A stretch of 64,000 bases of DNA from Rubrobacter tropicus (GTDB lineage: Bacteria; Actinomycetota; Rubrobacteria; Rubrobacterales; Rubrobacteraceae): NCBI RefSeq assembly GCF_011492945.1, contig NZ_CP045119.1:248001-312000 (forward strand). Direction: 5' to 3'. This document shows positions 10,623 to 62,284 of the stretch, in pieces. The position numbers and the translations under genes are program-made. The number at the start of each line of letters is the position of its first letter. The stretch's first letter is position 1. The notes under the pieces are model-generated. The model searched no databases and was not told where the DNA came from. It saw only the letters and a list, made by a program, of their open reading frames with translations.

Positions 10623-11291
10623 GTGGACTCGGGGACGACTAAAATACTGCTGGTCGAAGACCATCACCTGCTCCGCCAGGCGCTTGCCGAAATCCTCGGG
10701 CGGGAGCGGGACTTCCTCGTGGTCGCCCAGGCCGGATCGCTGGCCGAGGCGCGCGGTCTGCTGGAGGGGGTGGACGTCGCCATCGTGGACCCCGGGCTCC
10801 CCGACGGGGACGGAACGGAGCTCATAAGCGAGCTACGCGAGGCCAGCCCCGGCTGCATCGCCCTGATCATGACGGCAAGCCTGGACAGGACTCGCTTCGC
10901 GCGGGCGGTGGAGGCCGGCGCGGCGGGCATGATTCACAAGGCTTCTTACCTGCAAGAGGTCATCGACGCCGTGCGCCGCGCACGCGCGGAGGGGACACTT
11001 CTCTCGACCGGCCAGATCATCGAGTTGATGGGCCTGGCGTCCAGCCAGAGGGACCGGGCCGCCGCCGCCCGGGCGGCGGCGGAGAGGCTTACGCCGCAGG
11101 AGAAGGAGATCCTCCAGGGGCTCGGCCAGGGGTTGGGCAACAAGGAGATAGCGCGCCGCCTGGGCGTCGCCATCGATACGGAGCGCAACTACATGGCGAC
11201 CCTACTGACCAAGCTCGGCGCCCGCACCCGCCTCCAGGCGCTCGTTATCGCGATCCGCCACGGCCTCGTGGACCTCCACCCGAAAGACTGA
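10623..11291 (+). CDS. NarL/FixJ-family response regulator
   Basis: A 222-residue two-component response regulator. The GTG at 10623 is chosen because GGAG lies 8 bases upstream and the receiver domain begins at once; the earlier in-frame ATG at 10551 falls inside element F. Receiver domain ~6-120: acidic E12/D13, phospho-acceptor D56 (DVAIVDPGLPDGDG), T in IMTAS, K in IHKAS. LuxR-type HTH ~160-215 (LTPQEKEILQGL, NKEIARRL, MATLLTKLGARTR). No histidine kinase lies nearby, so its input is unknown. It has its own copy of the element found before the surface-protein genes, which would fit autoregulation; not proven. Confidence 0.88.
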   Translation: MDSGTTKILLVEDHHLLRQALAEILGRERDFLVVAQAGSLAEARGLLEGVDVAIVDPGLPDGDGTELISELREASPGCIALIMTASLDRTRFARAVEAGAAGMIHKASYLQEVIDAVRRARAEGTLLSTGQIIELMGLASSQRDRAAAARAAAERLTPQEKEILQGLGQGLGNKEIARRLGVAIDTERNYMATLLTKLGARTRLQALVIAIRHGLVDLHPKD

Positions 11292-11298
11292 CCCAGGG

Positions 11299-11325
11299 GG
11301 CGGTCCGCGGGCGCCGCGGACCGCC
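11299..11325. terminator. Bidirectional terminator-like hairpin
   Basis: A perfect 12-bp stem (11299-11310 against 11314-11325) with a 3-nt loop in the 34-base gap between two convergent genes. There is no U tract on either side. Confidence 0.6.
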
Positions 11326-12060
11326 TTACGAGAGTCCCTGTATTAGCGCCTTGAGCCTCGGGGCCAGGTCTTCGATGTCGTCGGGATCGCAGTTGATGTG
11401 CAGGTGGATCTGGACCGGCGGCGCCCCCGCCGCGCCCGCATCCGACGCGCCGTTGGCCTCGACTACCGCGGAGACCCCGGCTTCTGACGGCTCGGGTGAT
11501 CCCCCCTCCTCCGGTTCGCCTTCGATGGGTTCCTCGGGCATCGGGTCCTCGTCGAAGACCGCGACGAGCTCCCCGGCCTCTTCCCTCAAGAGTTCCGCGG
11601 CCTTGAGGATCTCCACGATCGCGCCGGCCCCCGTCATCACGGGCTTGTTGCGAGGCTGGCCGGCGGCGTGGGCTATGTAGGCCTGGACGGTCGGGAAGAG
11701 CATCCCCTCGCGCAGCTTCACGGCAGAGACGACGTTCTGCAGGAATTCCGTGGAGCCGACGATCCCCCGCCAGTTCGCCCTTATACCCTCCCTGTCCTTG
11801 CGGGCAAGCGCAAGCGCGAGGGCGCGTCCCCTGCGCGTAATAAGCTTCTTCGTCTCCCCCTGCAGGACGCCGATCTCCGTCAGAAAACCGTTGGTCCGGC
11901 TAACGCTCGACTGATGCACCGAATCGAGCTTCCCCACGTCCCCGGTCCTCGAAGCCTCGTCCCTGGTCCCGTAGGCCACGATGATGTTCGCCAACTCCTC
12001 GTAAGGAGAACCCGGAAGCCGAAATTGCCTCTCCGCCACAATACCCCTCTCGCCAGACAC
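11326..12060 (-). CDS. Unknown protein with HTH-like N-terminus and acidic linker
   Basis: A 244-residue protein, family not recognised. Residues 1-~165 are helical and basic (YEELANIIVAYG, SSVSRTNGFLTEIGV, KLITRRGRALALAL) and read like a winged-helix domain of the kind seen in archaeal and actinobacterial DUF proteins; this is a weak resemblance. Residues ~170-215 are a Glu/Pro/Gly/Ser-rich linker (EEPIEGEPEEGGSPEPSE). The C-terminus has a compact block, VQIHLHINCDPDDIEDLAPRL. Start ATG/GTG near 12060. It is convergent with the response regulator and separated from it by a hairpin. Confidence 0.65.
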   Translation of the reverse strand: MSGERGIVAERQFRLPGSPYEELANIIVAYGTRDEASRTGDVGKLDSVHQSSVSRTNGFLTEIGVLQGETKKLITRRGRALALALARKDREGIRANWRGIVGSTEFLQNVVSAVKLREGMLFPTVQAYIAHAAGQPRNKPVMTGAGAIVEILKAAELLREEAGELVAVFDEDPMPEEPIEGEPEEGGSPEPSEAGVSAVVEANGASDAGAAGAPPVQIHLHINCDPDDIEDLAPRLKALIQGLS

Positions 12061-48027: not shown

Positions 48028-49518
48028 ATGCCGTTTCTGGAGGGCATCGGGGGCTTTATAATTTTGTTGTATTACAGGCTGGGTACGGTCAGAGGTGGTA
48101 GGGCGCTGGAGACCTCGGTTGGAACCGTCCTCTCGGGACGGTACAGGGTAAAGAGCACGCTCGGCTCGGGCGGGATGGCGGTCGTCTACAAGGCCCAGGA
48201 CGCCATTCTCGGACGTTCCGTCGCGCTCAAGACGCTCCACCGCCACTACGCCGAGACGCCTTCTTTCCAGGCTCGCTTCAGGCAGGAGGCGCGGGCGATG
48301 GCCTCCCTGGACCACGAGAACATAGTCAAGGTCTACGACATCTCGCAGGATGGCGAGGTGCCGTTCATAGTCGTCGAGTGCGTGGCGGGGAGGGACCTCG
48401 GCAGGCTCCTCGGCGGGCAGGGCGGGGGGCGGCTGAGCGAGGCGTTCGTCAGGCGGATGGCAGAGCAACTCTTGCGGGCGCTTTCGTACGCGCACAGGCG
48501 CGGGATCATCCACAGGGACATAAAGCCATCGAACATCCTCCTCACCCCCGAGGGCACCGTCAAGGTGGCCGACTTCGGGATAGCGCGCATCGTCGAGGAG
48601 GACGACCTGGCCGGCGGCGAGCCGGGGGAGATAGTCGGCAGCGCCCGCTACATGTCGCCGGAGCAGCTCAGGGGCGACGAGGCGAAGCCGGAGAGCGACA
48701 TCTACTCGGTCGGGGTTCTGCTCTACCACTGCCTCACCGGAAGGCCGCCCTTCTCGGGCGACGTCAAGAGCCTGGCCCGCCAGCACATGCGCGAGCAGCC
48801 GACCCCGCCCCGCCGGCTGAACAAGAAGATCTCACCGGGCATGGAGGCCGTGATCCTGAAGGCCCTGGCCAAGGACCCGAGGGACCGCTACCCTTCCGCC
48901 TGCGCGATGCTCGACGACATAGAGGTCGGGCCGCTCCCCGTCGCCTCCCGCGCGACCGAGACGGCCAAGTCATCGCCCCGCAGGCGGCGCGGCGGGCTCG
49001 TCCTCGCCTCGGTCCTCGCCCTCCTGCTCCTGCTCGGCGGCGCCGCCGCCCTTGCCTCGGGCTACGTGGGCCTGCCGCAGGACGGCGTGCAGAGCGCCCT
49101 GGACCGCATAAACCCCGTCGAGACCGACACGGCCGCGGCGCCCACGCCGCCGGAATCCTCCCAGGAGACGGCCGCGGAACCGCAGAACCCCGACGGGGCG
49201 CGGGAAGACCCCACCAACACCGAGAGCGCCCCGCAGCCGGCCGCCCCTGGCGCGGAGACGGCGTCCCGCCGGGAGCAGCAGGAGCCCCGCAGGTCGCTCG
49301 TCCCGGTCCCCGACGTTACGGCCTACTACGACTACTACGCGGCCGACACCCTGGCGGCGAGCGGCCTCGACGTCGTGTATGTCAGGGACTACCGGGAGGG
49401 CTTCGCCGCCCGCGGCGTCACCTGGGCCACCGAACCAGCCGCCGGCACGCTCGTCCCCGAAGGCTCGACCGTCACGGTCTACGCCACGCCCGAGGACCTG
49501 CCGCAGCCGGTTTTTTAG
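48028..49518 (+). CDS. Serine/threonine protein kinase with one PASTA domain (PknB-like)
   Basis: A 496-residue membrane kinase. Kinase domain ~38-300: LGSGGMAVVYKAQ (P-loop), VALK (ATP lysine), HRDIKPSN (catalytic loop), DFGIARI (metal), ARYMSPEQL. One membrane helix at ~330-350 (LVLASVLALLLLLGGAAAL), then a Pro/Glu/Ala-rich linker and a single C-terminal PASTA domain (VPVPDVTAYYDYYAADTLAASGLDVVYV ... EPAAGTLVPEGSTVTVYA). PASTA domains of relatives sense muropeptides or lipid II; most PknB proteins have three or four. ATG at 48028 lacks a clear ribosome site and follows the predicted promoter closely, so initiation may be leaderless. Coordinates cell-wall growth by analogy. Confidence 0.9.
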   Translation: MPFLEGIGGFIILLYYRLGTVRGGRALETSVGTVLSGRYRVKSTLGSGGMAVVYKAQDAILGRSVALKTLHRHYAETPSFQARFRQEARAMASLDHENIVKVYDISQDGEVPFIVVECVAGRDLGRLLGGQGGGRLSEAFVRRMAEQLLRALSYAHRRGIIHRDIKPSNILLTPEGTVKVADFGIARIVEEDDLAGGEPGEIVGSARYMSPEQLRGDEAKPESDIYSVGVLLYHCLTGRPPFSGDVKSLARQHMREQPTPPRRLNKKISPGMEAVILKALAKDPRDRYPSACAMLDDIEVGPLPVASRATETAKSSPRRRRGGLVLASVLALLLLLGGAAALASGYVGLPQDGVQSALDRINPVETDTAAAPTPPESSQETAAEPQNPDGAREDPTNTESAPQPAAPGAETASRREQQEPRRSLVPVPDVTAYYDYYAADTLAASGLDVVYVRDYREGFAARGVTWATEPAAGTLVPEGSTVTVYATPEDLPQPVF

Positions 49519-50616: not shown

Positions 50617-50842
50617 TTCGCCAGATGTGGTGGCCGGATCTTCGGTGGCGCACATCCGATGGTGTAGAAGCGGGCCTCCGAAGGTGGCGTATCACCCCGG
50701 CCCGTGATAGGCTCTTCTGGCGATAAGCGCCCGCCTTCGGCGGGGCTCCGCCGCGGAAGAGAGAGGGGGGACCTCTCCAGGAGCGCGTAACGCTGGTGTT
50801 GTCGGGGTGTGCCGAAGAAAAGCACGCGGAGGGTACTGGATC

Positions 50843-52651
50843 TTGAGCCTCATAAATCGGAAGAAGAGAGACAGGCGAACCGGCGGAGACGGGTACGGCA
50901 ACTACGGTCCCGCTTACGGCAGCACGGGCAGCCGCCGCTCCCGGCGCCGCGGCTTCGCCGGCCCGATCATCATAATCTGCGCCCTCGTCGCCGTGCTGGT
51001 GGCCGCCGACTTCTGGATGAACTCGGGCAAGGTCCACCGCGGGGTCGAGGTCGGCAACGTCTCTTTGGGCGGCATGGAGCCCGCCGAGGCGCGGGAAGTG
51101 GTGAGGGAGCGGGCGATGGGCCCGCTGCAGGACATCGAGCTCAGCGGCCCCGACCGGTTCTCCCGGTCCGCCGAAGAGCTCGGCGTGAACTTCCACATCG
51201 ACTCCACCGTCGACAAAGCCTACGCCGTGGGCCGCGACGGAAACGTCCTCGAACGCCTCTCCGAGCGGCTGCGCGCCGCATTCCCCGGCATCACCATAGA
51301 CCCGAACATAAGCTACCGCTCCGACAACGTGCAAACCGAGGTCGAGGAGATAGCCTCCCAGGTCAACGCCCAGCCGCAGGACGCCACGGTCAAGGTCGTG
51401 GGCTCAGAGGTCGAGGTCGCCCAGTCCCAGGAGGGCTACAGGCTAAACGTCGAGGACACCATGACGAGCGTGGACGGGGCGATCGACGGCATGACCGGCG
51501 AGGCGAAGATAAAGGGTGACGTGCTCGGGCCCGACATCACCACCGCCGAGGCCGAGACGGCCGCGGAGAAGGCCCGCGGCGCCGTCTCCGAGCAGCTGGT
51601 CTTCGAGCACGAGGACCAGAACTGGACCGTCTCCCCGGCCGACATCGGCTCGAGCCTCGACGTCGCGCCGAACGACGGCAAGATCTCCGTAAGCCTCAAC
51701 CGCGATCGCATGAGCGACCGCCTGGCCCCCGTCTACTCCGACCTCGCCGTAAAGCCAAAGAACGCCTCCTACGACTTCGACGACAACGGGGACGTGATAG
51801 TCCTACCCAGCCGTGAGGGCCGGACGATCGAGTGGGAGAACCTGCTCGACTCGGTCGAGAACAACATCTTCGAGGGCAAGCGCGAGTACCAGGTGAACAC
51901 CACCGTGGACAAGCCCAAGTACACGACCGCGGGCCTAGAAGCCAAGAAGCCGACCGAGCTTCTCGGCTCCTACAAGACCGACTACATGGCGACCTCAGAC
52001 CAGGGCGCCGAGCGGGCGGAGAACCTGGAAATCGCCGCTAATGAGGTCAACGGCACCTTCGTCGCCCCCGGCGAGACCTTCTCCATGGTCGAGCACGTCC
52101 AGGACGCCAGGTACAATGCCGCGCACGTTATCGTGGAGAGCGGGACGCAGACGGCCGAGGGCGGTGGCCTCTGCCAGGTTACCTCCACCCTCTACAACGC
52201 GGTCCTCTACGCCGGCCTGCCGGTGACGAAGCGCGAGCCCCACGACTCGGTCCTGCCCTACATCCGGCCCGGGATGGACGCGACGATCTGGTACGGCGAT
52301 ACGACGACGACGGCCGACGACACGGACATGCAGTTCAAGAACAACACCGATGGTTACGTGCTCATCGAAGAGTACGTCTCAGGCGACGGCTACATGTACG
52401 CCAACGTCTACGGCGTCCCGAACAACATAGAGGTGGAGATGTCGTCCAAGCCGGTCTGGGAAAACGCGGACGGCGCCGAGTGGGTCACGTACTACACGAG
52501 GTACAAGAACGGTGAGGTTGAGTACGAGGATAGCTGGAACAGCTTGTACAGCGCTCTGTACGACGAGAAGGGCAAGAAGATACCGGCCGATCAGGTCCCG
52601 ACCGCCGAAGTGGACGGTAGCTACCTGGGACCGAACATAGCGGCGGAATAG
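50843..52651 (+). CDS. VanW family protein with peptidoglycan-binding-like domains
   Basis: About 602 residues from TTG 50843 (GGAGG upstream; GTG at 50807 is the in-frame alternative). A basic N-terminus precedes one membrane helix (IIIICALVAVLVAADFWM). Extracellular: repeated PG_binding_4-type modules (VSLGGMEPAEAREVV, ELGVNFHIDSTVDKAYAVGRDG), then the VanW domain (TDYMATSDQGAERAENLEIAANEVNGTFVAPGETFSM, GGGLCQVTSTLYNAVLYAGLP, RPGMDATIWYG). VanW occurs in vancomycin-resistance clusters but its activity is unsettled; many actinobacterial copies are housekeeping. It ends at a strong terminator. A paralog starts at 57421. Confidence 0.88.
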   Translation: MSLINRKKRDRRTGGDGYGNYGPAYGSTGSRRSRRRGFAGPIIIICALVAVLVAADFWMNSGKVHRGVEVGNVSLGGMEPAEAREVVRERAMGPLQDIELSGPDRFSRSAEELGVNFHIDSTVDKAYAVGRDGNVLERLSERLRAAFPGITIDPNISYRSDNVQTEVEEIASQVNAQPQDATVKVVGSEVEVAQSQEGYRLNVEDTMTSVDGAIDGMTGEAKIKGDVLGPDITTAEAETAAEKARGAVSEQLVFEHEDQNWTVSPADIGSSLDVAPNDGKISVSLNRDRMSDRLAPVYSDLAVKPKNASYDFDDNGDVIVLPSREGRTIEWENLLDSVENNIFEGKREYQVNTTVDKPKYTTAGLEAKKPTELLGSYKTDYMATSDQGAERAENLEIAANEVNGTFVAPGETFSMVEHVQDARYNAAHVIVESGTQTAEGGGLCQVTSTLYNAVLYAGLPVTKREPHDSVLPYIRPGMDATIWYGDTTTTADDTDMQFKNNTDGYVLIEEYVSGDGYMYANVYGVPNNIEVEMSSKPVWENADGAEWVTYYTRYKNGEVEYEDSWNSLYSALYDEKGKKIPADQVPTAEVDGSYLGPNIAAE

Positions 52652-52674: not shown

Positions 52675-52704
52675 GAGGCCCCCGGTTTTATAACCGGGGG
52701 CCTC
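52675..52704. terminator. Bidirectional rho-independent terminator
   Basis: A 13-bp stem (GAGGCCCCCGGTT and its complement) with a TTAT loop, followed by TCTT, between the convergent VanW and decarboxylase genes. Confidence 0.85.
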
Positions 52705-52728: not shown

Positions 52729-54063
52729 CTAGCTCCTCGTAAGCGCCTTCTGTCCGTTGAGCACGTCTTCCGGTTTGCCGCCAGCGCGGAGCAGGAGTGC
52801 CTCGCCGTTGTGGAGGAGCACCTCTGCGGGGGAGGGGTGGCTTAGGAAGCCGAGGTTGGAGGCGGAGTAGCCGTAGGCGCCGCTGTAGAAGACGCCTATC
52901 AGGTCGCCGACCTCGGGGGCGGCGAGGGGGATGTTGTTGCCGAAGGAGTCGAGCGGGGTGCAGCAGGGGCCCGCGACGGCGACGCCCTCCTCCGGGACGG
53001 CGCCGTCCGTGCGGGTGAGGTTCAGAATGGGGTAGGCCTTGCGGAAGACCTGGCCCATGTTGCCCGTGGCGGTGAGGTGGTGGTTCATGCCGCCGTCGGT
53101 GACGGCGAAGGTCTTGCCGCGGGTCTCCTTCACGTCGACGACGCGGGTGACGTAGACGCCCGCGTCGGCGACCAGGTAGCGGCCTAGCTCGAAGAGGAAG
53201 CGGCAGCCTTCCAGGCGGGAGTCCGAGCGGTAGCCAGAGACGATCTCCTTGAGTCCCTCGCCGAAGCGGTCTAGGTCGAACTCGCTGGTCTTCTCGAAGT
53301 AGGGGACGCCGAAGCCGCCGCCGAAGTCGATCATCTCCAAAGCGTGGCCGGCGTGGTCCGCCGCCTCCAGTGCTATATCGAAGATGTTGCGGCAGTGCTC
53401 GAGCAGGGGGTCGACCTCGAAGACCTGGGTGGCCGTGTAGACGTGGACGCCGCGCATGACGAGGCTCTCGTGGGAGAGGACTTTTTCGACGGCTTCGGCG
53501 AGGTCGGCTTGGTCGATGCCGAACTGGCCGACCGTGCCGCCCATGCGCATCCCGCTACCCATGAGCTGGGCCGTCGGGTTTATTCTGATCCCGACGCCTA
53601 TGGTCTTCCCGGCCTCCTCCGCGATGGCGGCCAACCGCTCTATCTCGCCGAGCGACTCGACGTTGACGGCGTGGATGCCCTCATCCACGGACATCCTCAG
53701 CTCCTCGTCCGTCTTGGCCGGCCCCGCGAAGACTATGTCCTCGGGCGCGAAGCCCGCGGCCCGCGCCACTATAAGCTCCCCGGAAGAGGCGACCTCCCCG
53801 CCCGCGCCGGCCTGCGCTATCAGCGAGCAGACGGCGAGGTTCGGGTTCGCCTTGAGTGAGTAGGCGACCTCGGTGCCGAGGGCTTCGCGGACGCGGCGGA
53901 CGCGGTCGGAGATCATGTCTGCGTGGTAGAGGTAGAACGGCGATCCGTACTCTTTCGCTATCTCCGAGACGGGTATGCCGCCGGGGGCGAACTCGCCGCC
54001 CTCGGTGGCGGAGTTGCCGAAGCGGTTCGCCAGGTCGTTTGCCTTATCCGTTTGTGTAAGCAC
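52729..54063 (-). CDS. PLP-dependent decarboxylase (DAP/ornithine class, group IV)
   Basis: A 444-residue alanine-racemase-fold decarboxylase. PLP lysine K71 in AYSLKANPN; GGEVASSGELIVARAAG; GVGIRINP; MIDFGGGFGVPY; FELGRYLVADAGVYVTRV; catalytic Cys in VAGPCCTPLDS; YGYSASNLGFLSHP. Genes of this type sit with an AMP ligase and carrier protein in exosortase-associated and small-molecule clusters, as here. The GTG at 54063 overlaps the ligase end by 20 bases. It may decarboxylate an amino acid, perhaps after tethering to the carrier; the substrate is unknown. A housekeeping LysA role is less likely in this operon. Confidence 0.85.
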   Translation of the reverse strand: MLTQTDKANDLANRFGNSATEGGEFAPGGIPVSEIAKEYGSPFYLYHADMISDRVRRVREALGTEVAYSLKANPNLAVCSLIAQAGAGGEVASSGELIVARAAGFAPEDIVFAGPAKTDEELRMSVDEGIHAVNVESLGEIERLAAIAEEAGKTIGVGIRINPTAQLMGSGMRMGGTVGQFGIDQADLAEAVEKVLSHESLVMRGVHVYTATQVFEVDPLLEHCRNIFDIALEAADHAGHALEMIDFGGGFGVPYFEKTSEFDLDRFGEGLKEIVSGYRSDSRLEGCRFLFELGRYLVADAGVYVTRVVDVKETRGKTFAVTDGGMNHHLTATGNMGQVFRKAYPILNLTRTDGAVPEEGVAVAGPCCTPLDSFGNNIPLAAPEVGDLIGVFYSGAYGYSASNLGFLSHPSPAEVLLHNGEALLLRAGGKPEDVLNGQKALTRS

Positions 54064-55630
54064 TGCTGATCCCCTTGCGGTCTATCTTGCCTGAACCCGT
54101 CTTCGGGAGCTCGTCCCTGACGATTATCTCCTTCGGGATCATGTACGGCGGGCCGTTCTTTATGGCGTACTCCCGGATGGAGTCGAGCGCCCCGTCGCCC
54201 GTTGTGTTCCTCAAGGAGATCACGGCTATAACGTCCTGCCCGACCGCCGGGTTCTCCACCCCGAAGGCGCACGCCTCGTTGACGAGGCCCGAGGCTATAA
54301 GGAGGTTCTCGACCTCCTCGGGGCTCAGGCGGTAGCCCTGGTTCTTTATCATGGCGTCCTCGCGACCGAGGAAGTAAAGGTACCCTTCCTCGTCCCGCGT
54401 CACCGTGTCGCCCGAATAGACGACCCGCTCCACGTCCAGCAACTCCGGCGGGGCGAGCGGGTTCGGGCGGTAGGCCTTCTGGGTGGCCTCCTCGTTGCCC
54501 CAGTAGCCCATCGCGACGGTGGGACCGCGGTGGACGAGTTCGCCCGGTTCGCCGGGGGCTGCCTCTTTGCCCTCTTTGGTTATTACCATGATCTCGGAGT
54601 TCGGGATCGCCTTGCCGATGCAGTTGCCCTGCTCGGGAGAGGAGCGGTGGATCTCCGCGGGGTCGAGGTAGGTCGAGCGGAACGCCTCCGTGAGGCCGTA
54701 CATCAGGTAGATCTTGGTCCCCGCCGGTTCGAGCAGGTTCCTCATCTCGTCCAGGTTGGCCTGCGGGATGCGTCCGCCGGTGTTGGCGACGTATCGCAGG
54801 TGGGTCATCGGGTTCTCCCGCAGGGACTTCGCGCCGCGCAGCAGCAGCGCCCACAGCGGCGGGACGCCCGTCACACCCGTGATCTCGTGCCGGCGCAACG
54901 CCTTGAGCAGATCCCCCGGCAGCCTGGACCGGAGCAGATAAAGCGTCGCCCCGGACCTGAGCGACGTCGTGAACTGGCTCATCCCGGCGTCGAAATTCAA
55001 GGGAAGCGCCGAGAGGATGCGGTCGTCCGGAGTATTCTCCAGGTAAGAGGAGACGATCTGTGCCCCCACCGTCACGTTGCGCTGGCTCGTCGCCACGCCC
55101 TTCGGCATCCCCGTCGAGCCGGACGTGTACAGGATGGTTCCGAGGTCGATCTCGGAGACGGTGCGGTCCTCTTTCAGGCCGCCGCCCTTGAGCGCTTCGG
55201 CGACGTCCACGTAGGACTTCGCGGCGGCCCCTTCGGGCTTTTCGCCCCTGTAGAATGCGGTCTCGACCGTTTTCGGTTGAAGTTCGTCGAGCTTCGGGGT
55301 GTCCCCGATCATGACGCGGATGTCGCAGTCTTGGGCCAGGTACTCGATCTGGGGCGCCTTGAAGAGCGGGTTGACGTTTACGTAGGCCGCCCCGATGCGG
55401 GAGGCCGCCAGCATCGAGACTATGGCCTCCCACGACTTCTCGACGAGCACGCCCACCCTGTCGCCCTTGTTTACCCCGGCCTCGACGAGGGCGGCACCCA
55501 AAGAGCTGCTCTCGCGTTCGAGATCCTCGTAGGAGTATTCCGCGTCGCCGTCGACGACCGCCGCTCTCTGCGGGTCGCGTTCTACGGAGTTGTGGAGGAG
55601 GTCGTGGAGGGTGAATTCCGGGCGGGGCAT
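54044..55630 (-). CDS. AMP-dependent acyl/aminoacyl ligase
   Basis: A 528-residue ANL-superfamily enzyme starting at the ATG that overlaps the carrier-protein stop by one base (TGATG). Core motifs: ILYTSGSTGMPKGV, YGLTEAFRST, YSGDTVTRDEEGYLYFLGREDAMIKNQGYRLSPEEVE and LPKTGSGKIDRKG with the catalytic Lys. It activates a carboxylate with ATP and loads it on a thiol. With the acyl carrier protein just upstream, loading of that carrier is the likely job. It matches the ligase found with PEP-CTERM/exosortase-type systems, but no exosortase is in the window. The substrate cannot be told. Confidence 0.87.
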   Translation of the reverse strand: MPRPEFTLHDLLHNSVERDPQRAAVVDGDAEYSYEDLERESSSLGAALVEAGVNKGDRVGVLVEKSWEAIVSMLAASRIGAAYVNVNPLFKAPQIEYLAQDCDIRVMIGDTPKLDELQPKTVETAFYRGEKPEGAAAKSYVDVAEALKGGGLKEDRTVSEIDLGTILYTSGSTGMPKGVATSQRNVTVGAQIVSSYLENTPDDRILSALPLNFDAGMSQFTTSLRSGATLYLLRSRLPGDLLKALRRHEITGVTGVPPLWALLLRGAKSLRENPMTHLRYVANTGGRIPQANLDEMRNLLEPAGTKIYLMYGLTEAFRSTYLDPAEIHRSSPEQGNCIGKAIPNSEIMVITKEGKEAAPGEPGELVHRGPTVAMGYWGNEEATQKAYRPNPLAPPELLDVERVVYSGDTVTRDEEGYLYFLGREDAMIKNQGYRLSPEEVENLLIASGLVNEACAFGVENPAVGQDVIAVISLRNTTGDGALDSIREYAIKNGPPYMIPKEIIVRDELPKTGSGKIDRKGISSAYTNG

Positions 55631-55881
55631 CAGGCTGCCTTGCCCTCCACCAGGGTGGCGATGGCGTCGACGGAGCCGAAGTTCTCCTCGTCGAACTCGT
55701 CGTCCTCGATCATGATGCCGAACTCGTCTTCGAGGAAGGTGACGAGCTCCACCGTCTGGAGCGAGGTCATGACGCCGTTCTCTATGAGGGGCTCGTCGTT
55801 GGCGACGTCGCGCCCGCCCGTCACGTTCTCCTGCAGCCAGCCGCGTATCGCGGCCCGTGCGTCTGTGTTGTTTGCAACCAT
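55630..55881 (-). CDS. Acyl/peptidyl carrier protein
   Basis: An 83-residue four-helix carrier, strongly acidic (FLEDEFGIMIEDDEFDEENF). The phosphopantetheine serine is S40 in ENGVMTSLQTVEL, where the usual DSL is TSL. GGAG seven bases before the ATG at 55881. It lies 11 bases after the acetyltransferase gene and overlaps the ligase start by one base, so all four minus-strand genes are one operon. It holds an activated acyl or amino acid while the decarboxylase or acetyltransferase acts (inference). Confidence 0.88.
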   Translation of the reverse strand: MVANNTDARAAIRGWLQENVTGGRDVANDEPLIENGVMTSLQTVELVTFLEDEFGIMIEDDEFDEENFGSVDAIATLVEGKAA

Positions 55882-55892
55882 AACGTATCTCC

Positions 55893-57095
55893 TTATCTGA
55901 GCCAGAAGCTCGCTTCGCCGTCGCCGATGTTATACGACCAGTTGGTAAGATCGAGCGCCATCCGGTGCTGGTCGCCGTCCTTGAACTTGACCAGAAGGTT
56001 GTTGCGTCTCCCCCTGCGGGAGAAGAAGCCCAGGCGCGTGAGGTCGCCCGACCGCGCCGAAGTGGGGGAGTCGAGGTACCTGTAGCGGATGATCTGGGCC
56101 CCCTCATCCCTGAAGTGCCGCACGATTCCCCGCAGCAGCGCCCGCGTCACGTCCCGCCGCCCCGGCAGCGCCACGAGGTCGAGCACGTACCCGTCCTGCC
56201 CCTTGGAAGCGGCCCTGAGCACGGCGTACCCGAGCAGCCTGCCGCCGGAGCGGACGCCGAGCACGGTCACCGGCGCCTGGGGGGAGCCCGGGCCGTACCG
56301 CCACCTCAGAAAAGACGAGTCTTTCTCCGCGACGCAGGGGACCACGGCCGCCACCCTCTCGAAGAGGTCGTCGAAAGACTCGTCGAACCCGTCGAGCACC
56401 TCCGCCCGCAGGTCGCCGCCGAAGTTTCTGCCCAGGGCCTCGTCCACGGCCCCGAGGCCGCGGTTCAGGAGGTTCTTGAGCGGGCCGGGCAGCGGGGCCC
56501 TGGGTCGCGGCGCGGGCGGGGCCACGTATTCGTCGGCCTCCTCGGTCTCGACGCCGGGGCGGTCCGTAAAGCCGCGGGACGGGGCGAAGCTATCGGGGAG
56601 GTTGAGGGCGCGCCGGATCGGACCCGGAACCGGCGGCATGGGGAGCCTGGAGACGTTCAAGAGCTTCGCCGCGTAGTTCATCTCACCCGCGACCTTGGCC
56701 CCGAGCTTGGTCTCTATCTCGATGACCGCAGGGACCATGTCGCAGACCACGCAGTTCTCGGTGGTCCGGAAAAAGTTGCGCATGAGGGAGAGTGCCTGGA
56801 AGCCGTACCCCTCGTCCACCATGTAGTCGCCCGGCGTGTGGGCGACCACCCTCTGCCCGTCTACCCTGTAGTACTGGGGCGTCGCCGCCAGGTGCCCTAC
56901 CACTTTGTCCCCGTCGAGCGCGACCCACCTGTGCACCTCGTCGGCCAGCGGGTGGCTCTCGAACCAGCGGTAGACGTCGGCGTAGAAGGCGGTGTCCCTG
57001 GTCTCGGGAAAGAAGGGGAAGGCGCGGATGCGCAGTTTGCCCACGCCCTCCTCGAGCCCGGGACCGTCCATCGGCTTGACGACCACCTTCTTCAT
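55893..57095 (-). CDS. GNAT-fold acetyltransferase-like protein of carrier-protein operon
   Basis: A 400-residue protein, first gene of the four-gene operon. ATG at 57095 (MKKVVVKPMDGPGLEEG) chosen because the frame upstream is not protein-like. N-terminal GNAT-like half: LRIRAFPFFPETRDTAFYADVYRWFESHP, HRWVALDGDKVVGHLAATPQYYRVDG, GDYMVDEGYGFQALSLMRNFF; C-terminal half with a second such region (DSSFLRWRYGPGSPQAPVTVLGVRSGGRLLGYAVLRA). Tandem GNAT folds resemble FemX/exosortase-associated acyltransferases. It would use the acyl group carried by the ACP as donor; acceptor unknown. A Pro-rich linker joins the halves. Confidence 0.75.
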   Translation of the reverse strand: MKKVVVKPMDGPGLEEGVGKLRIRAFPFFPETRDTAFYADVYRWFESHPLADEVHRWVALDGDKVVGHLAATPQYYRVDGQRVVAHTPGDYMVDEGYGFQALSLMRNFFRTTENCVVCDMVPAVIEIETKLGAKVAGEMNYAAKLLNVSRLPMPPVPGPIRRALNLPDSFAPSRGFTDRPGVETEEADEYVAPPAPRPRAPLPGPLKNLLNRGLGAVDEALGRNFGGDLRAEVLDGFDESFDDLFERVAAVVPCVAEKDSSFLRWRYGPGSPQAPVTVLGVRSGGRLLGYAVLRAASKGQDGYVLDLVALPGRRDVTRALLRGIVRHFRDEGAQIIRYRYLDSPTSARSGDLTRLGFFSRRGRRNNLLVKFKDGDQHRMALDLTNWSYNIGDGEASFWLR

Positions 57096-57420: not shown

Positions 57421-58890
57421 TTGAAGGAGATAAGCAAGGAAGGCGGGCCGCGGGCCGCCCGGAGGTCGGGCCGCGATCGGCCGCAGGCCAACGGCGGGTC
57501 GCCGCGCAGCCGCAAGTCGCGCAGCCGCAAGTCGCGTAACTACGCCCGCAGGCGCGGGCTGGCCGTCGTCGCCGTCGTAGCGGGCGTTCTCCTGCTCGGT
57601 TTCGCGGCGGTAGACCTCGCCTCGGGGGACGGCGGCATCCAGCGCGGCGTCCGGATCGGGGACGTCAACGTCGGCGGGATGAGCAAGGACGAGGCCCGGG
57701 CCGCCGTGGAGCGCAACGCATCGGAGACCTTCCAGGAGATCTCCTTCGGAGAAGGCCCCGACGCCGTCTCGGTCGGCGCCGACAGGCTCGGCGTAGAGGT
57801 GAACGCCGACGCGGCCGTGGAGGAGGCTTACTCCATCGGGCGCAGCGGCGGCCCTTTTCAGAGGATCTCCGACTTCTTCGGCTCGTACCTGGGCGGGACG
57901 CAGGTCGACCTGAAGGCCGGCTACGACGAGAGGGCCGCGAACGAGACCCTCGGCGGGATCGCCGAGGGCTTCAATCGGGAGCCTAAAGACGCGACCTTCA
58001 CCGTCACCGACGGCGGCAAGGTCGAGGTCCAGGAGGCGAAGGACGGGCGGGTGCTCGACGAGAAGGCGACCCTCGCGAACCTCGAAGGGGCGCTCCAGAA
58101 CATGAGCGGCCGGGTGCCGCTGGCAGAGGGCACGGCACCTAAGCCCGAGATCACCACCGCCGAGATCCAGAAGAGCAAGCCCGAAGAGGTCATAGGCGAA
58201 TACCAGACGGACTTTCGCTGGGACTCGAATCCGAACCGGAAAGAGAACATGAAGCTCGCGGCCGGCGCCGTGGACAACACGGTCGTCAAGCCCGGCGAGG
58301 TCTTCTCCTTCAACGAGTTGGCAGCGCAGCTCGACTACAAGGAGGCGAAGACCTTCTCCAACGGCGGCGTCGGCATCGACAACGGGGGCGGGCTCTGCCA
58401 GGTCTCATCAACGCTTTACATGGCGGCCCAGTACGCCGGGCTCGACATCGAGGAGCGCCACCCGCACTACGCGGTCCTGCCATACATCAAGCCGGGCTTC
58501 GACGCGACGGTGTGGTTCGGGGACGAGTACGGCTACGGCGTGCAAGACATGAAGTTCAGGAACTCGACGGAGGCCCCCATCCTCATCCGCGAGTGGGTGG
58601 ACGGCGAGGGCTTCCTGAACGCCCAGATCCTCGGCCAACCGACCGGCAAGAAGGTCGAGATGACGACGGAGAAGATCTTCGAGGACACCACCCGCGGTAT
58701 CCGGTGGGACACGTACAAGAAGGTCACCGAGAACGGCGAGGTTATCTACGACGACATGATCCACACCTACACCTACTCGTACAACCCGCCCCCGCCCGAG
58801 GACGGGCCTCACTACGACACCTCGGCCCCGCGGGTGGCCGGCTGGAACGACCCGGGCAACACCACCGGCTGGGCCGAAGTCCCCGAGTAA
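57421..58890 (+). CDS. VanW family protein with peptidoglycan-binding-like domain
   Basis: A 489-residue paralog of the protein at 50843. TTG at 57421 has AGGAGG about 10 bases upstream. Very basic N-terminus with repeats (RSRKSRSRKSRNYARRR), one membrane helix (GLAVVAVVAGVLLLGFAAVDLA), one PG_binding_4-like region (VNVGGMSKDEARAAVERN, DRLGVEVNADAAVEEAYSIG), and the VanW domain (NPNRKENMKLAAGAVDNTVVKPGEVFSFNELA, GGGLCQVSSTLYMAAQYAGLD, KPGFDATVWFG). Outer-face cell-wall protein. It is followed within 45 bases by the beta-lactamase-fold gene, probably co-transcribed. Confidence 0.88.
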   Translation: MKEISKEGGPRAARRSGRDRPQANGGSPRSRKSRSRKSRNYARRRGLAVVAVVAGVLLLGFAAVDLASGDGGIQRGVRIGDVNVGGMSKDEARAAVERNASETFQEISFGEGPDAVSVGADRLGVEVNADAAVEEAYSIGRSGGPFQRISDFFGSYLGGTQVDLKAGYDERAANETLGGIAEGFNREPKDATFTVTDGGKVEVQEAKDGRVLDEKATLANLEGALQNMSGRVPLAEGTAPKPEITTAEIQKSKPEEVIGEYQTDFRWDSNPNRKENMKLAAGAVDNTVVKPGEVFSFNELAAQLDYKEAKTFSNGGVGIDNGGGLCQVSSTLYMAAQYAGLDIEERHPHYAVLPYIKPGFDATVWFGDEYGYGVQDMKFRNSTEAPILIREWVDGEGFLNAQILGQPTGKKVEMTTEKIFEDTTRGIRWDTYKKVTENGEVIYDDMIHTYTYSYNPPPPEDGPHYDTSAPRVAGWNDPGNTTGWAEVPE

Positions 58891-58934
58891 CGCGGTGGAC
58901 GGGCCAGGGTCGGACACCCGAGAGTAGGGCACCC

Positions 58935-60434
58935 TTGAACTTCTTTCAGCGCAAAAAAATGTTCGTCTCGCGCTCCGAGGCGCGCCGCCGCCGGCGCAGG
59001 GTTCGCCTCGGCGTCCTGGCCGCCCTCCTGGTGGCCGTCGTCGGCGGCGTGTTCCTGGCGGGCCAGTTGTCCGGCGGGACCTCCTCCGCGGGCCTCTCCC
59101 CGCTCTCGGACGACGGGTCCCGCCAGGAGCCCCGGCAGGAGGAGCCCGCCCCCGGACCCGGCAAAGAAGGTCCACGCGCGGAGGGTAAAGAGGAGCAATC
59201 CCCGCCCGAGGAACCCGCCCCCGACCCCGAGCAGAAGACGCCCGAGGCCGCGGCCTTCGTCGCCGTCGCCCCCGAGTTTCCCGGGGTGAAAGAGGGGAAC
59301 GTCGCGGGCGTGTACAGGAGCAGGATGGACCCTTCCTGGGCCTCCGTCAGGTTCTCGCCGGAGGGCGAGAACAAGGACTTCGTCGTCTTCTCGCACAAGG
59401 AGGGGGACCTCTGGCGGGCCGAGAAGTCGATAAGGGCGGACGAGCCAGACTACCCGGACAACGACGTCGTCCCGCTCGCCGGCGTCCCCAAAGACCTGCT
59501 CGACTACCTCTACGAGGAGAACCTCTTCGCCGCCGAGGTGCCAGAGCCCAAGCGGGAGGAGATCGGCGGCCTGCCCGACCTCGATCCCGCCGAGAAGCCC
59601 CCGGCCGAGACGACGACCGACGACGTGCCGGAAGACGAGCAGGAGCGCGTCGATGAGGTGGTCGGAAAGTTGGAGGACCGGGTAAAGGGCTACGACGGGG
59701 TCGCGGGCGTCTACGTGCGGGACCTCGAAGGGGACTTCGGCTACGGGGTGCGCGCAGACGAGACGTTCTTCTCTGCCTCGATCATCAAGGTCCCCGTCAT
59801 GGTCGCCGTCTACCGGAAGGTCGAGAAGGGGGACCTGAGCTTCTCCCAGGAAGTCGAGCTGAAGGAGGAGGACTGGGCCGCGGGCGCCGGCTGGCTGCAG
59901 TGGGAGAAGGCGGGCACGAAGCAGACGGTCGGAGACCTCTTGCTCCTGATGATGACCCAATCCGACAACGTCGCTACCAACGCCCTCGTACGCATGGTCG
60001 GCGGCAAGGACCACGTCAACGACGTGGCCGAGTCCCTCGGGGCCAAGGACACCCTCCTCTACCAGAAGGTGAGCAGCGAGCGGGGCGCCGTCCCCGCCCT
60101 CGACAACAGGACCACCCCCCGCGACATGGCGACCATGATGCAGAAGATAGCCGACGACGAGGCCGCCAGCGAGAAGAGCTGCGGGTACATGAAAGACCTG
60201 ATGCGCACCAACGAGCTCGACTGGTGGCTCGACGCCGGCCTCCCCGCCGACGTGGACGCCGCCAACAAGGCGGGCTGGCTCTACCAGGTCTACGGCGACG
60301 TCGGCATAGTCGAGCACGAAGGCAACCGCTATGCCATCGCCATCCTCAGCAAACACGGCTCCGCCACGGTCGACGAGGGCGCCGTGCTAATAGAAGACCT
60401 CTCGAGAACGACCTGGGAGTCGCAGGCGCCGTAG
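58935..60434 (+). CDS. Class A beta-lactamase-fold serine hydrolase, membrane-anchored
   Basis: About 499 residues from TTG 58935; an ATG at 58959 is the other candidate, and the open frame further upstream only reads through the VanW gene. A basic start and one membrane helix (LGVLAALLVAVVGGVFLAG) precede a long Pro/Glu-rich linker and a ~100-residue domain of unknown type. The C-terminal ~260 residues are a class A fold: SASIIKVPV (SxxK), TQSDNVATNAL (SDN), KAGWLYQVYGD (KAG replacing KTG). It may be a penicillin-interacting or D,D-peptidase-like enzyme; lactamase activity is not assured. Repeat R12 starts at the stop. Confidence 0.82.
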   Translation: MNFFQRKKMFVSRSEARRRRRRVRLGVLAALLVAVVGGVFLAGQLSGGTSSAGLSPLSDDGSRQEPRQEEPAPGPGKEGPRAEGKEEQSPPEEPAPDPEQKTPEAAAFVAVAPEFPGVKEGNVAGVYRSRMDPSWASVRFSPEGENKDFVVFSHKEGDLWRAEKSIRADEPDYPDNDVVPLAGVPKDLLDYLYEENLFAAEVPEPKREEIGGLPDLDPAEKPPAETTTDDVPEDEQERVDEVVGKLEDRVKGYDGVAGVYVRDLEGDFGYGVRADETFFSASIIKVPVMVAVYRKVEKGDLSFSQEVELKEEDWAAGAGWLQWEKAGTKQTVGDLLLLMMTQSDNVATNALVRMVGGKDHVNDVAESLGAKDTLLYQKVSSERGAVPALDNRTTPRDMATMMQKIADDEAASEKSCGYMKDLMRTNELDWWLDAGLPADVDAANKAGWLYQVYGDVGIVEHEGNRYAIAILSKHGSATVDEGAVLIEDLSRTTWESQAP

Positions 60435-60703: not shown

Positions 60704-62284
60704 CTAGCTGCCCGAAGGGCCGGCGCGCCGCCTGAGAAGCTCTGCCACGGACTTCAGCTCTTCCGTGCGGAGCAGGAAGGCGGTGGCGAGGTAGGCGGCC
60801 AGGGAGACGGTTCCCACGGTCGTGAGGATCAGTAGGCGTTCGGTGAAGTCGGTGCCGGTGCCCAGGAGGGTCGTGCCCGCAAGGGCCACCGCATACATGA
60901 CCGTTCCTGCGGCCAGGATCTTGGTGAGGGAGATGAGGGTGCGGCGGCCGTCGATCCGGCCTATCTCGCGCCGGGTCGTGATGAGGGCGAGGATCGCGAG
61001 CAAGGCGTAGGCGATGGAGAGGGCCAGCACGACGCCCACGGCCTCGAAGAGGTGGGAGAGCCCGTAGGCGAGGGCCGCGTAGGCGACGAGGATGCCGACG
61101 TTCAGGAGGGCGGGGGTCATCGTGTTCTGGCGGGAGTAGAAGGCCCGGACGAGGAAGAAGTACGCGGAGTATCCCAAGAGGCCGACCGCGTAGGCGACGA
61201 GCAGGCCGGCGACGATTCTGGTGTCCTGCGCCCCCCACTCGCCGCGCTGGTAGAGGATGCCGACGATGGGCTTCGCGAGCACGATCAGGCCGACCGTGGA
61301 AGGCACCACCACGAAGGTCATCGTCCTGAGGCCGAAGGAGAGCGTCTCCCTGTAGCCTTCGACGTCCTCGCGGGAGTGCTTTTCGGAGAGCTCCGGCATC
61401 AGGGCCGTCGCTATGGCGACGACGAAGATGCCGTAGGGCAGGGAGAATATCGTGAACGCGTAGGTGAGTTCCGCGTACCGGCTGAAGCCGGTCGCGAGGC
61501 TGGCCGCCAGAAGCTGGAACGCCACCGAGGCGGCCACGAGCACCACCATCGGCCCGGCGAGCTTCGCGGTCGGAAGCAGGGCCGGGTGTCCGAGTTGCGG
61601 GCGTGGCCTGTAACCGAGGGCGAGCAGCGTCGGCACCAGGGCGAGCGCCATCACCGCGACGCCTACAGTCACCCCGAAGGCGAGGACGTAGAGGGCCAGG
61701 CTCTGGTTGTCGTCCTCCAGGAGGATGTAGGCCGCGAAGGAACCTATGATGATCAGGTTGTTGAGCACGGGGGCGAAGGTGGGTAGAAAGAAGCGCCGGT
61801 GGGCCTGGAGCACCCCGGTCGCGATGGTGGTAACGCCGTAGAAGAGCATCTGCACGGCGAAGACGCGGAAAAAGAACACGGCGAGCTCCGTGGTCTCCCT
61901 GGCGTCGGCGGGTGAGATGTTCGCGGAAGGGCTCAGGCCCACGACCAGCGCCACGAGCGGGCCGGCAAAGACGACGCCCAGGAGGGCCAGAAGCGCCATC
62001 AGCGGCATTACCAGCGTGATCAGGGCGTTTGTCAGGCGGCGGGCGTCCTCCTCGCCGTGGCCCGTGATGCGGTCGACCAGGACCGGGATGAAGATCGAGT
62101 ACAGGATGCCGCCCAGAAAGAGCTCGTAGATCAGGCTCGGCAGGAGCACCGCGAGGGCGTAGGCGTCCGCCACCACGGCCGTGCCAAGAACCGCGCCCTG
62201 CGCCGCGATGCGCACGTACCCCGTAGCCCGCGAGAGCACGGTCGCCGCGGAGATCGAGAGCATCGACCGCAGAACGCCGGTCAT
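60704..62284 (-). CDS. murJ: Lipid II flippase MurJ (MviN)
   Basis: A 526-residue protein with 14 predicted membrane helices, the usual length for MurJ. Landmarks: SMLSISAATVLSRATGYVRIAAQGAVLG (first helix with the conserved Arg), ADAYALAVLLPSLIYELFLGGILYSIFIPVL, FFFRVFAVQMLFYGVTTIATGVLQAHRRFFLPTFAPVLNN, YAFTIFSLPYGIFVVAIATALMPELSE. It moves lipid II across the membrane for peptidoglycan synthesis. ATG at 62284. It stands apart from the flippase at 30446, which is of the polysaccharide branch. Both gene ends touch dispersed repeats. Confidence 0.92.
   Translation of the reverse strand: MTGVLRSMLSISAATVLSRATGYVRIAAQGAVLGTAVVADAYALAVLLPSLIYELFLGGILYSIFIPVLVDRITGHGEEDARRLTNALITLVMPLMALLALLGVVFAGPLVALVVGLSPSANISPADARETTELAVFFFRVFAVQMLFYGVTTIATGVLQAHRRFFLPTFAPVLNNLIIIGSFAAYILLEDDNQSLALYVLAFGVTVGVAVMALALVPTLLALGYRPRPQLGHPALLPTAKLAGPMVVLVAASVAFQLLAASLATGFSRYAELTYAFTIFSLPYGIFVVAIATALMPELSEKHSREDVEGYRETLSFGLRTMTFVVVPSTVGLIVLAKPIVGILYQRGEWGAQDTRIVAGLLVAYAVGLLGYSAYFFLVRAFYSRQNTMTPALLNVGILVAYAALAYGLSHLFEAVGVVLALSIAYALLAILALITTRREIGRIDGRRTLISLTKILAAGTVMYAVALAGTTLLGTGTDFTERLLILTTVGTVSLAAYLATAFLLRTEELKSVAELLRRRAGPSGS

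Follow-up and report, generated by a model that had tools for sequence, protein, structure and literature searches.

The window analysed here is a stretch of 64,000 nucleotides of Rubrobacter tropicus DNA, bases 248001–312000 of contig 1 in a genome of 4.58 Mb and two contigs. On its minus strand, from 57095 down to 52729, lie four open reading frames in the order tandem-GNAT acyltransferase (55893..57095, 400 amino acids [aa]), stand-alone carrier protein (55630..55881, 83 aa), AMP-forming ligase of the adenylation-domain type (54044..55630, 528 aa) and fold-type III pyridoxal phosphate (PLP) decarboxylase (52729..54063, 444 aa, with a GTG start); this operon, also called the module below, is the subject of this report. 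The genes are tightly packed—11 bases separate those for GNAT and carrier, carrier and ligase overlap by 1 base, and ligase and decarboxylase by 20—and all four assignments are backed by Pfam: Acetyltransf_1 (26.5 bits, cut-off 20.7), PP-binding (23.7 bits, cut-off 20.8), AMP-binding (267 bits) with AMP-binding_C, and Orn_Arg_deC_N with Orn_DAP_Arg_deC. A first-pass annotation had described four overlapping or nearly overlapping genes for an acyltransferase, carrier, ligase and decarboxylase at this site, and coordinates, gene order and Pfam matches agree with it.

Among solved structures the decarboxylase is closer to BtrK, the L-glutamyl-[BtrI ACP] decarboxylase, which provides its best PDB matches (293 bits), than to diaminopimelate decarboxylases (190 bits for the best chain so labelled). 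K71, within the motif SLKAN, is invariant in 14 sequences, and a second homologue elsewhere in the genome, 33% identical, is taken for LysA. In butirosin biosynthesis BtrI, BtrJ and BtrK lead from gamma-glutamyl-acyl carrier protein (ACP) to gamma-aminobutyryl (GABA)-ACP, and they share with the window a stand-alone carrier, a ligase and a fold-type III PLP decarboxylase working on a carrier-bound amino acid. They serve an antibiotic pathway, whereas the window set has an envelope context and a tandem-GNAT protein; the comparison covers the BtrK sequence alone.

Residues D214 (FD motif) and R318 (after YGLTE) of the ligase are invariant in 14 aligned sequences, an alignment separate from VinN residues Asp230 and Ser299/Arg331. 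PDB entry 3wvn, which together with 3wv4 and 3wv5 we take to be VinN, is among the ligase matches at 168 bits, ranked after gramicidin synthetase modules. In vicenistatin biosynthesis the stand-alone carrier VinL receives 3-methylaspartate from VinN, and decarboxylation there by VinO yields 3-aminoisobutyryl-carrier (PMC11284099); for aspartate, attached via its beta-carboxyl, the same pair of reactions has been proposed for BolO and the BtrK-like BolN (PMC7756342). The bolagladin scheme is a proposal supported by a gene deletion, and a bolN deletion was not rescued by free beta-alanine (PMC7756342). VinN/VinL/VinO and BolO/BolC/BolN thus resemble the scheme proposed below in that an aspartate-type acid is attached by its side chain to a stand-alone carrier and decarboxylated to a beta-aminoacyl thioester; they differ in that the product feeds a polyketide synthase (PKS) or nonribosomal peptide synthetase (NRPS).

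Ser40 of the carrier, in a TSL motif, is invariant across 15 aligned sequences and is expected to be the phosphopantetheine site. A role in ornithine lipid synthesis was considered, the carrier's best NCBIfam model being the OlsHI carrier, and was dropped because the score is only 47.6 bits against a cut-off of 130 and because the OlsH paper describes a GH3-like enzyme, the terms 'decarboxylase' and 'acyl carrier protein' appearing nowhere in its text (PMC12493201).

The tandem-GNAT protein has no NCBIfam match, matches only Acetyltransf_1 and Acetyltransf_9 in Pfam at E ≤ 0.1, with no match to FemAB (PF02388), and found nothing below E 0.29 in sequence searches of the PDB. Its AlphaFold (AF2) model (predicted local distance difference test, pLDDT, 83.8; predicted template modelling score, pTM, 0.82; residues 169–198 under 50) consists of two GNAT-like halves, and structural matches across residues 1–397 indicate a GNAT fold in both. 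Full-length alignments reach N-myristoyltransferases (Z up to 21), a Kribbella GNAT (Z 20) and Eis2 (Z 19.9) at 9–14% identity, and the top Foldseek match is 2hv2. No FemABX chain was among the 50 matches listed by VIA-align, though a similarity may exist all the same. In two loci of the same genus as the window (L066 and L067) the carrier, ligase and decarboxylase are 90–96% identical to those of the window, the GNAT merely 58–59%, and several loci hold two GNATs; this greater divergence and the two-GNAT loci may reflect changing acceptors or GNAT replacement.

The operon was sought in 60 genomes, 36 from Rubrobacteraceae and 24 from other families of the phylum. The GNAT was found at E ≤ 1e-10 in 21 genomes, all of them Rubrobacteraceae, and the GNAT and the decarboxylase occur in exactly the same 21 of the 36. 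Genomes other than that of the window contribute 26 GNAT loci, of which 16 are complete operons, three are cut by contig ends and seven have the GNAT without the rest in the sequence retrieved. A decarboxylase profile run on 396 genomes of the phylum (with at most four candidates scored per genome, here and in the Chloroflexota scan below) gave 25 genomes at E ≤ 1e-100, 24 from Rubrobacteraceae and one from outside; the sole match beyond the family scores 339 bits and has an internal stop.

The gene order is repeated in many other genomes, and the arrangement is therefore not due to chance. On the decarboxylase side the window has vanW1 (50807..52651, plus strand, 614 aa), a homologue of which stands there in 14 of the 16 complete loci; on the GNAT side the divergent vanW2 (57421..58890, plus strand, 489 aa) is followed by a frame with a Beta-lactamase2-fold gene (58512..60434, plus strand; PF13354, 202 bits) whose true start is probably past vanW2, and one or other of these two genes occupies that side in 12 of the 16. 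Both VanW proteins carry VanW and PG_binding_4 domains by Pfam. Beyond them lies a conserved neighbour, a homologue of the lipid II flippase MurJ (60704..62284, minus strand; PF03023, 266.6 bits), and MurJ homologues were detected by tblastn in 14 of the 26 Rubrobacteraceae GNAT loci. FemAB-family proteins, which first appeared as an unlabelled cluster and whose Pfam identity was checked on four examples, number 17 in 13 loci and stand inside nine of the 16 complete operon loci. The neighbourhood survey proposed by the first-pass annotation thus places MurJ, VanW, FemAB and, in one case described below, murE beside the operon. The VanW flanks that it had stressed are real and lie on both sides; they are nonetheless a weak functional clue, since VanW relatives (E ≤ 1e-60) occur in 32 of the 36 Rubrobacteraceae genomes irrespective of the operon. 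Among the vanW2 matches listed, those above 470 bits come from module-bearing genomes only.

Between the stops of the convergent decarboxylase and vanW1 genes is a 13-bp perfect hairpin (52675..52704; −28.1 kcal/mol by RNA folding), a probable terminator that is absent from the output of a consensus terminator scan of the window. Further out, at 48028–49518, the translation judged by eye looks like a serine/threonine kinase with a C-terminal PASTA-like stretch; PASTA domains are common partners of wall synthesis. Elsewhere in the window genome there are additional GNAT copies without carrier, ligase or decarboxylase. Two of them, 48–50% identical, each sit between vanW1 and vanW2 homologues, one on contig 1 near 3.91 Mb (L010 5667–17148) and one on the 205-kb contig 2 (L011 7815–12220), which may be a plasmid; a further copy is in L009. 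Pairs of GNAT and FemAB without the carrier module are present in L051 and L053, flanked by genes of shared clusters, and the L051 pair is additionally flanked by an ABC-transporter gene pair.

Outside the phylum, genome contigs were scanned with two peptide patterns taken from the GNAT alignment. The resulting 34 loci include a Thermomicrobiales, a Sphaerobacter, a Chloroflexota and two titled 'bacterium' only. GNAT (43–61% identical), carrier, ligase and decarboxylase occur together in L102 (Thermomicrobiales), L106 (Chloroflexota), and L080 and L104 (phylum unstated); MurJ homologues lie near the operon in L102 and L104 (59–62%) and in L106 (30%), and FemAB-like genes are present in L102 and L106. 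The decarboxylase was found in four of 61 genomes of Sphaerobacter's order (703–876 bits) and, at E ≤ 1e-100, in two of 400 Chloroflexota genomes. In the Chloroflexota genome G508 a divergent murE homologue (TIGR01085, 481 bits against a cut-off of 257) lies about 120 bases from the start of the carrier gene, so that carrier, ligase and decarboxylase lie beside murE and are followed by a distant MurJ homologue (26%). In a decarboxylase tree from which one row was dropped, L102 and L104 group with Rubrobacteraceae genus g3 (support 98/98), and this branching suggests horizontal transfer.

The FemAB proteins sort by best match into two types, an ancestral type and a module type. Ancestral FemAB is present in 13 of the 15 module-free Rubrobacteraceae genomes (G027 among them) and in two of the 21 that bear the module (Fisher p = 4e-6, uncorrected for kinship). 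These figures refer to the 36-genome set, outside which lie three module-bearing genomes found later: G803 has ancestral FemAB, and G827 and G848 have the module type only, giving three of 24 module-bearing genomes with the ancestral type. A simple swap, with ancestral FemAB occupying the module's site in module-free genomes, was considered and rejected; 11 of the 12 loci read place it in a different neighbourhood that itself recurs, with genes judged by eye to be dnaK/dnaJ-like and, by BLAST, none for VanW, MurJ or the module. The gene call of L165 hides the ancestral FemAB, and tblastn finds it in that genome.

Neither Pfam nor a 12-sequence profile finds a FemAB in the window genome itself, and no femAB piece was found in the window at E ≤ 0.05. 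A related genome of the same genus, G004, retains between GNAT and vanW2 the decayed C-terminal part of a femAB gene (L066, about 11197–11442), detected with the A6 profile as a 44-residue remnant; the same profile gives a weak 27.8-bit match in G001. The decayed piece is evidence of recent FemAB loss in G004, and FemAB has probably been lost, with the operon kept, in the window's branch, which would therefore leave the GNAT as the only transferase candidate in the operon. FemABX proteins use aminoacyl-tRNA, and FemAB, like the tandem-GNAT protein, consists of two GNAT-like halves. FemX/FemAB and the window GNAT also share loci and, as we propose, the acceptor, and the ancestral type and the module almost exclude one another; the GNAT differs in having no PF02388 match and would use an aminoacyl-carrier.

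Beta-alanine is decarboxylated aspartate, and by comparison with the families above the window-type enzyme set could make it from aspartate. In Sphaerobacter thermophilus (G080) two GNATs (44% and 42%), carrier (55%), ligase (54%) and decarboxylase (61%) stand in a row. The cell wall of this species has Glu:Orn:Ala:beta-Ala at 1:1.1:1.2:1.6, and its murein is given as type A3beta with ornithine and with beta-alanine as the cross-link, the latter statement citing earlier work (both PMC3035262). No gene is named for the Sphaerobacter beta-alanine cross-link in the open-licence literature searched. By analogy with Sphaerobacter, beta-alanine is the most likely residue for the window operon.

We favour, with modest confidence, the explanation that the operon is a carrier-protein-dependent route to a peptidoglycan cross-bridge, most likely of beta-alanine, which would operate without transfer RNA. 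In its favour are the conserved gene content, the envelope neighbours, the near-exclusive occurrence of the module and ancestral FemAB, the operon in a species whose published murein has a beta-alanine bridge, the parallels with BtrK, VinN/VinO and BolO/BolN, and the resemblance of the GNAT model to N-myristoyltransferases and Eis2. We infer every enzymatic step, substrate and acceptor of this route, as follows. The substrate of the ligase would be an acidic amino acid, L-aspartate being the most likely, which it would load with ATP by way of the side-chain (beta) carboxyl to give a beta-aspartyl (isoaspartyl)-carrier; activation of the side chain would be needed because PLP decarboxylases of this kind require a free alpha-amino acid end. 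The BtrK-like decarboxylase would then strip the alpha-carboxyl to leave beta-alanyl-carrier, and the tandem-GNAT protein would move the beta-alanyl group onto the side-chain amine of the diamino acid at position 3 of the wall precursor, Lys in Rubrobacteraceae or Orn in Sphaerobacter. MurJ would export the modified precursor, with cross-linking to follow, and FemAB, where present in the loci of relatives, may add a second residue or share the same step. Since beta-alanine lies outside the standard set of tRNA amino acids, the carrier would take the place of tRNA. The first-pass annotation had suggested possible attachment of a carrier-bound amino acid or amine to a wall or surface polymer; the neighbours uphold it as to an envelope role, and the most likely acceptor is narrowed here to a peptidoglycan precursor.

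Several observations weigh against this explanation. In seven of the 26 GNAT loci the other three genes are missing from the sequence retrieved, some of these loci lying on short contigs, and the GNAT was not found in the 19.9-kb G508 locus. Rubrobacter marinus (G030), G023 and G803 carry both the module and ancestral FemAB, G023 having a module-type FemAB by best match as well; both the module and FemAB are missing from G007 and G026 (assemblies of 640 and 620 contigs); and for FemAB of any type the difference with respect to the module is not significant (p = 0.14). The only statement of a Rubrobacterales bridge that we found in print is L-Lys <- L-Ala (PMC3035278), the Rubrobacter diamino acid is given in another paper as L-Lys or meso-diaminopimelic acid (PMC6834744), and the literature search gave no murein analysis of any module-bearing Rubrobacteraceae strain. 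Walls with beta-alanine and ornithine are also described for Dictyobacter (Ktedonobacteria; PMC12453558), where the beta-alanine may have another origin, as only two of the 400 Chloroflexota genomes carry the decarboxylase. The transferase of S. thermophilus is not settled either, because four distant FemAB/Acetyltransf_6 proteins lie in a row away from its operon (L208/L215/L220, contig 1, 1263805–1268255). An absence of FemAB from this species had been indicated by PF02388, which found none at E ≤ 1e-5, but was given up when the A6 profile found these four relatives; two of the three scanned pass the Pfam FemAB cut-off. Similar rows are present in G079 (four proteins) and G061 (three).

An alternative that we consider unlikely keeps the chemistry and places the product on another surface polymer, teichoic-like or a secondary wall polysaccharide, much as D-alanine is handled through DltA and DltC, where an adenylated amino acid is passed to a stand-alone carrier on its way to the wall. 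The carrier and ligase do match the DltC and DltA models of NCBIfam, and the VanW neighbours, together with a Sulfatase-like neighbour (L051, 5640–7589) of a GNAT and FemAB pair without carrier, would fit such a destination. The Dlt scores are distant, however, and that system involves no decarboxylation and a different acceptor. No DltB/DltD-like gene was seen among the few neighbours scanned with Pfam, the genome not being searched for them; MurJ, and murE in G508, point instead to a peptidoglycan precursor, and so does the near-exclusive occurrence of the module and ancestral FemAB.

It is improbable that the operon is a polysaccharide-decoration module like the Gram-negative exosortase A loci, minus the sorting enzyme. 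The first-pass annotation had drawn a comparison with ligase–decarboxylase pairs of exosortase systems, and the closest named families by profile are indeed the 'exosortase A system-associated' models TIGR03098 for the ligase (566.8 bits) and TIGR03099 for the decarboxylase (418.4 bits). Both scores fall below the curated cut-offs (592.35 and 478.45), and the comparison holds only as a family resemblance. The ligase of S. thermophilus (L121 9294–10868) does pass TIGR03098, at 631.6 bits, and databases may therefore name such a ligase misleadingly. As that annotation had noted for the window, there is no exosortase: none exceeds the Pfam cut-off (PF09721) in the whole genome, two matches at 11 bits being below threshold. 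The FemAB proteins speak against the idea as well, those of L050 (module type) and L164 (ancestral) scoring 41 and 57 bits against the XrtA FemAB model (cut-off 260) and both about 83 bits to the FemX alanyltransferase model, itself below a cut-off of 500.

We give little credence to the variant in which the mechanism is otherwise the same and the bridge is built from a different carrier product, either gamma-aminobutyryl made from glutamate or some other omega-amino acid. That BtrK, the nearest solved relative, decarboxylates a glutamyl-carrier is a point in its favour and one more to be set against beta-alanine, but beta-alanine is what is found in the one species with both a known murein and the operon. 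A small secondary metabolite or modified amine or lipid unrelated to the wall is very improbable: BtrK and VinN/VinO come from antibiotic pathways, GNATs often acylate small molecules, and a second, distant AMP-ligase homologue lies near the operon in L059 and L086, yet the envelope neighbours are stable across genera and phyla, and occurrence only in natural-product clusters, which the first-pass annotation had raised, is not what the loci read suggest, no PKS or NRPS gene being noticed in them, though without a systematic scan for such clusters.

The components of the cross-bridge route are related to known families, and building a peptidoglycan bridge with them would be new within the open-licence literature searched. 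More tentative, and in our judgement plausible but short of probable, is the wider proposal of a third cross-bridge route, needing neither aminoacyl-tRNA nor ATP-grasp D-amino acid ligases, in which aspartate is loaded and decarboxylated on a carrier and transferred by a GNAT. On this proposal the route would have displaced ancestral FemX across most of one set of Rubrobacteraceae genera, and would have passed between Rubrobacteraceae and Thermomicrobiales/Chloroflexota. A beta-alanine cross-link is not accounted for by the usual Fem route, because that residue is not in the tRNA set, and the operon offers specific genes, a step-by-step chemistry and two named strains, S. thermophilus and Rubrobacter marinus. 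If true, the explanation would join carrier-bound amino acid chemistry of the antibiotic type to the branching of the cell wall, and would give another reading of the 'exosortase-associated' label that databases attach to such ligases and decarboxylases.

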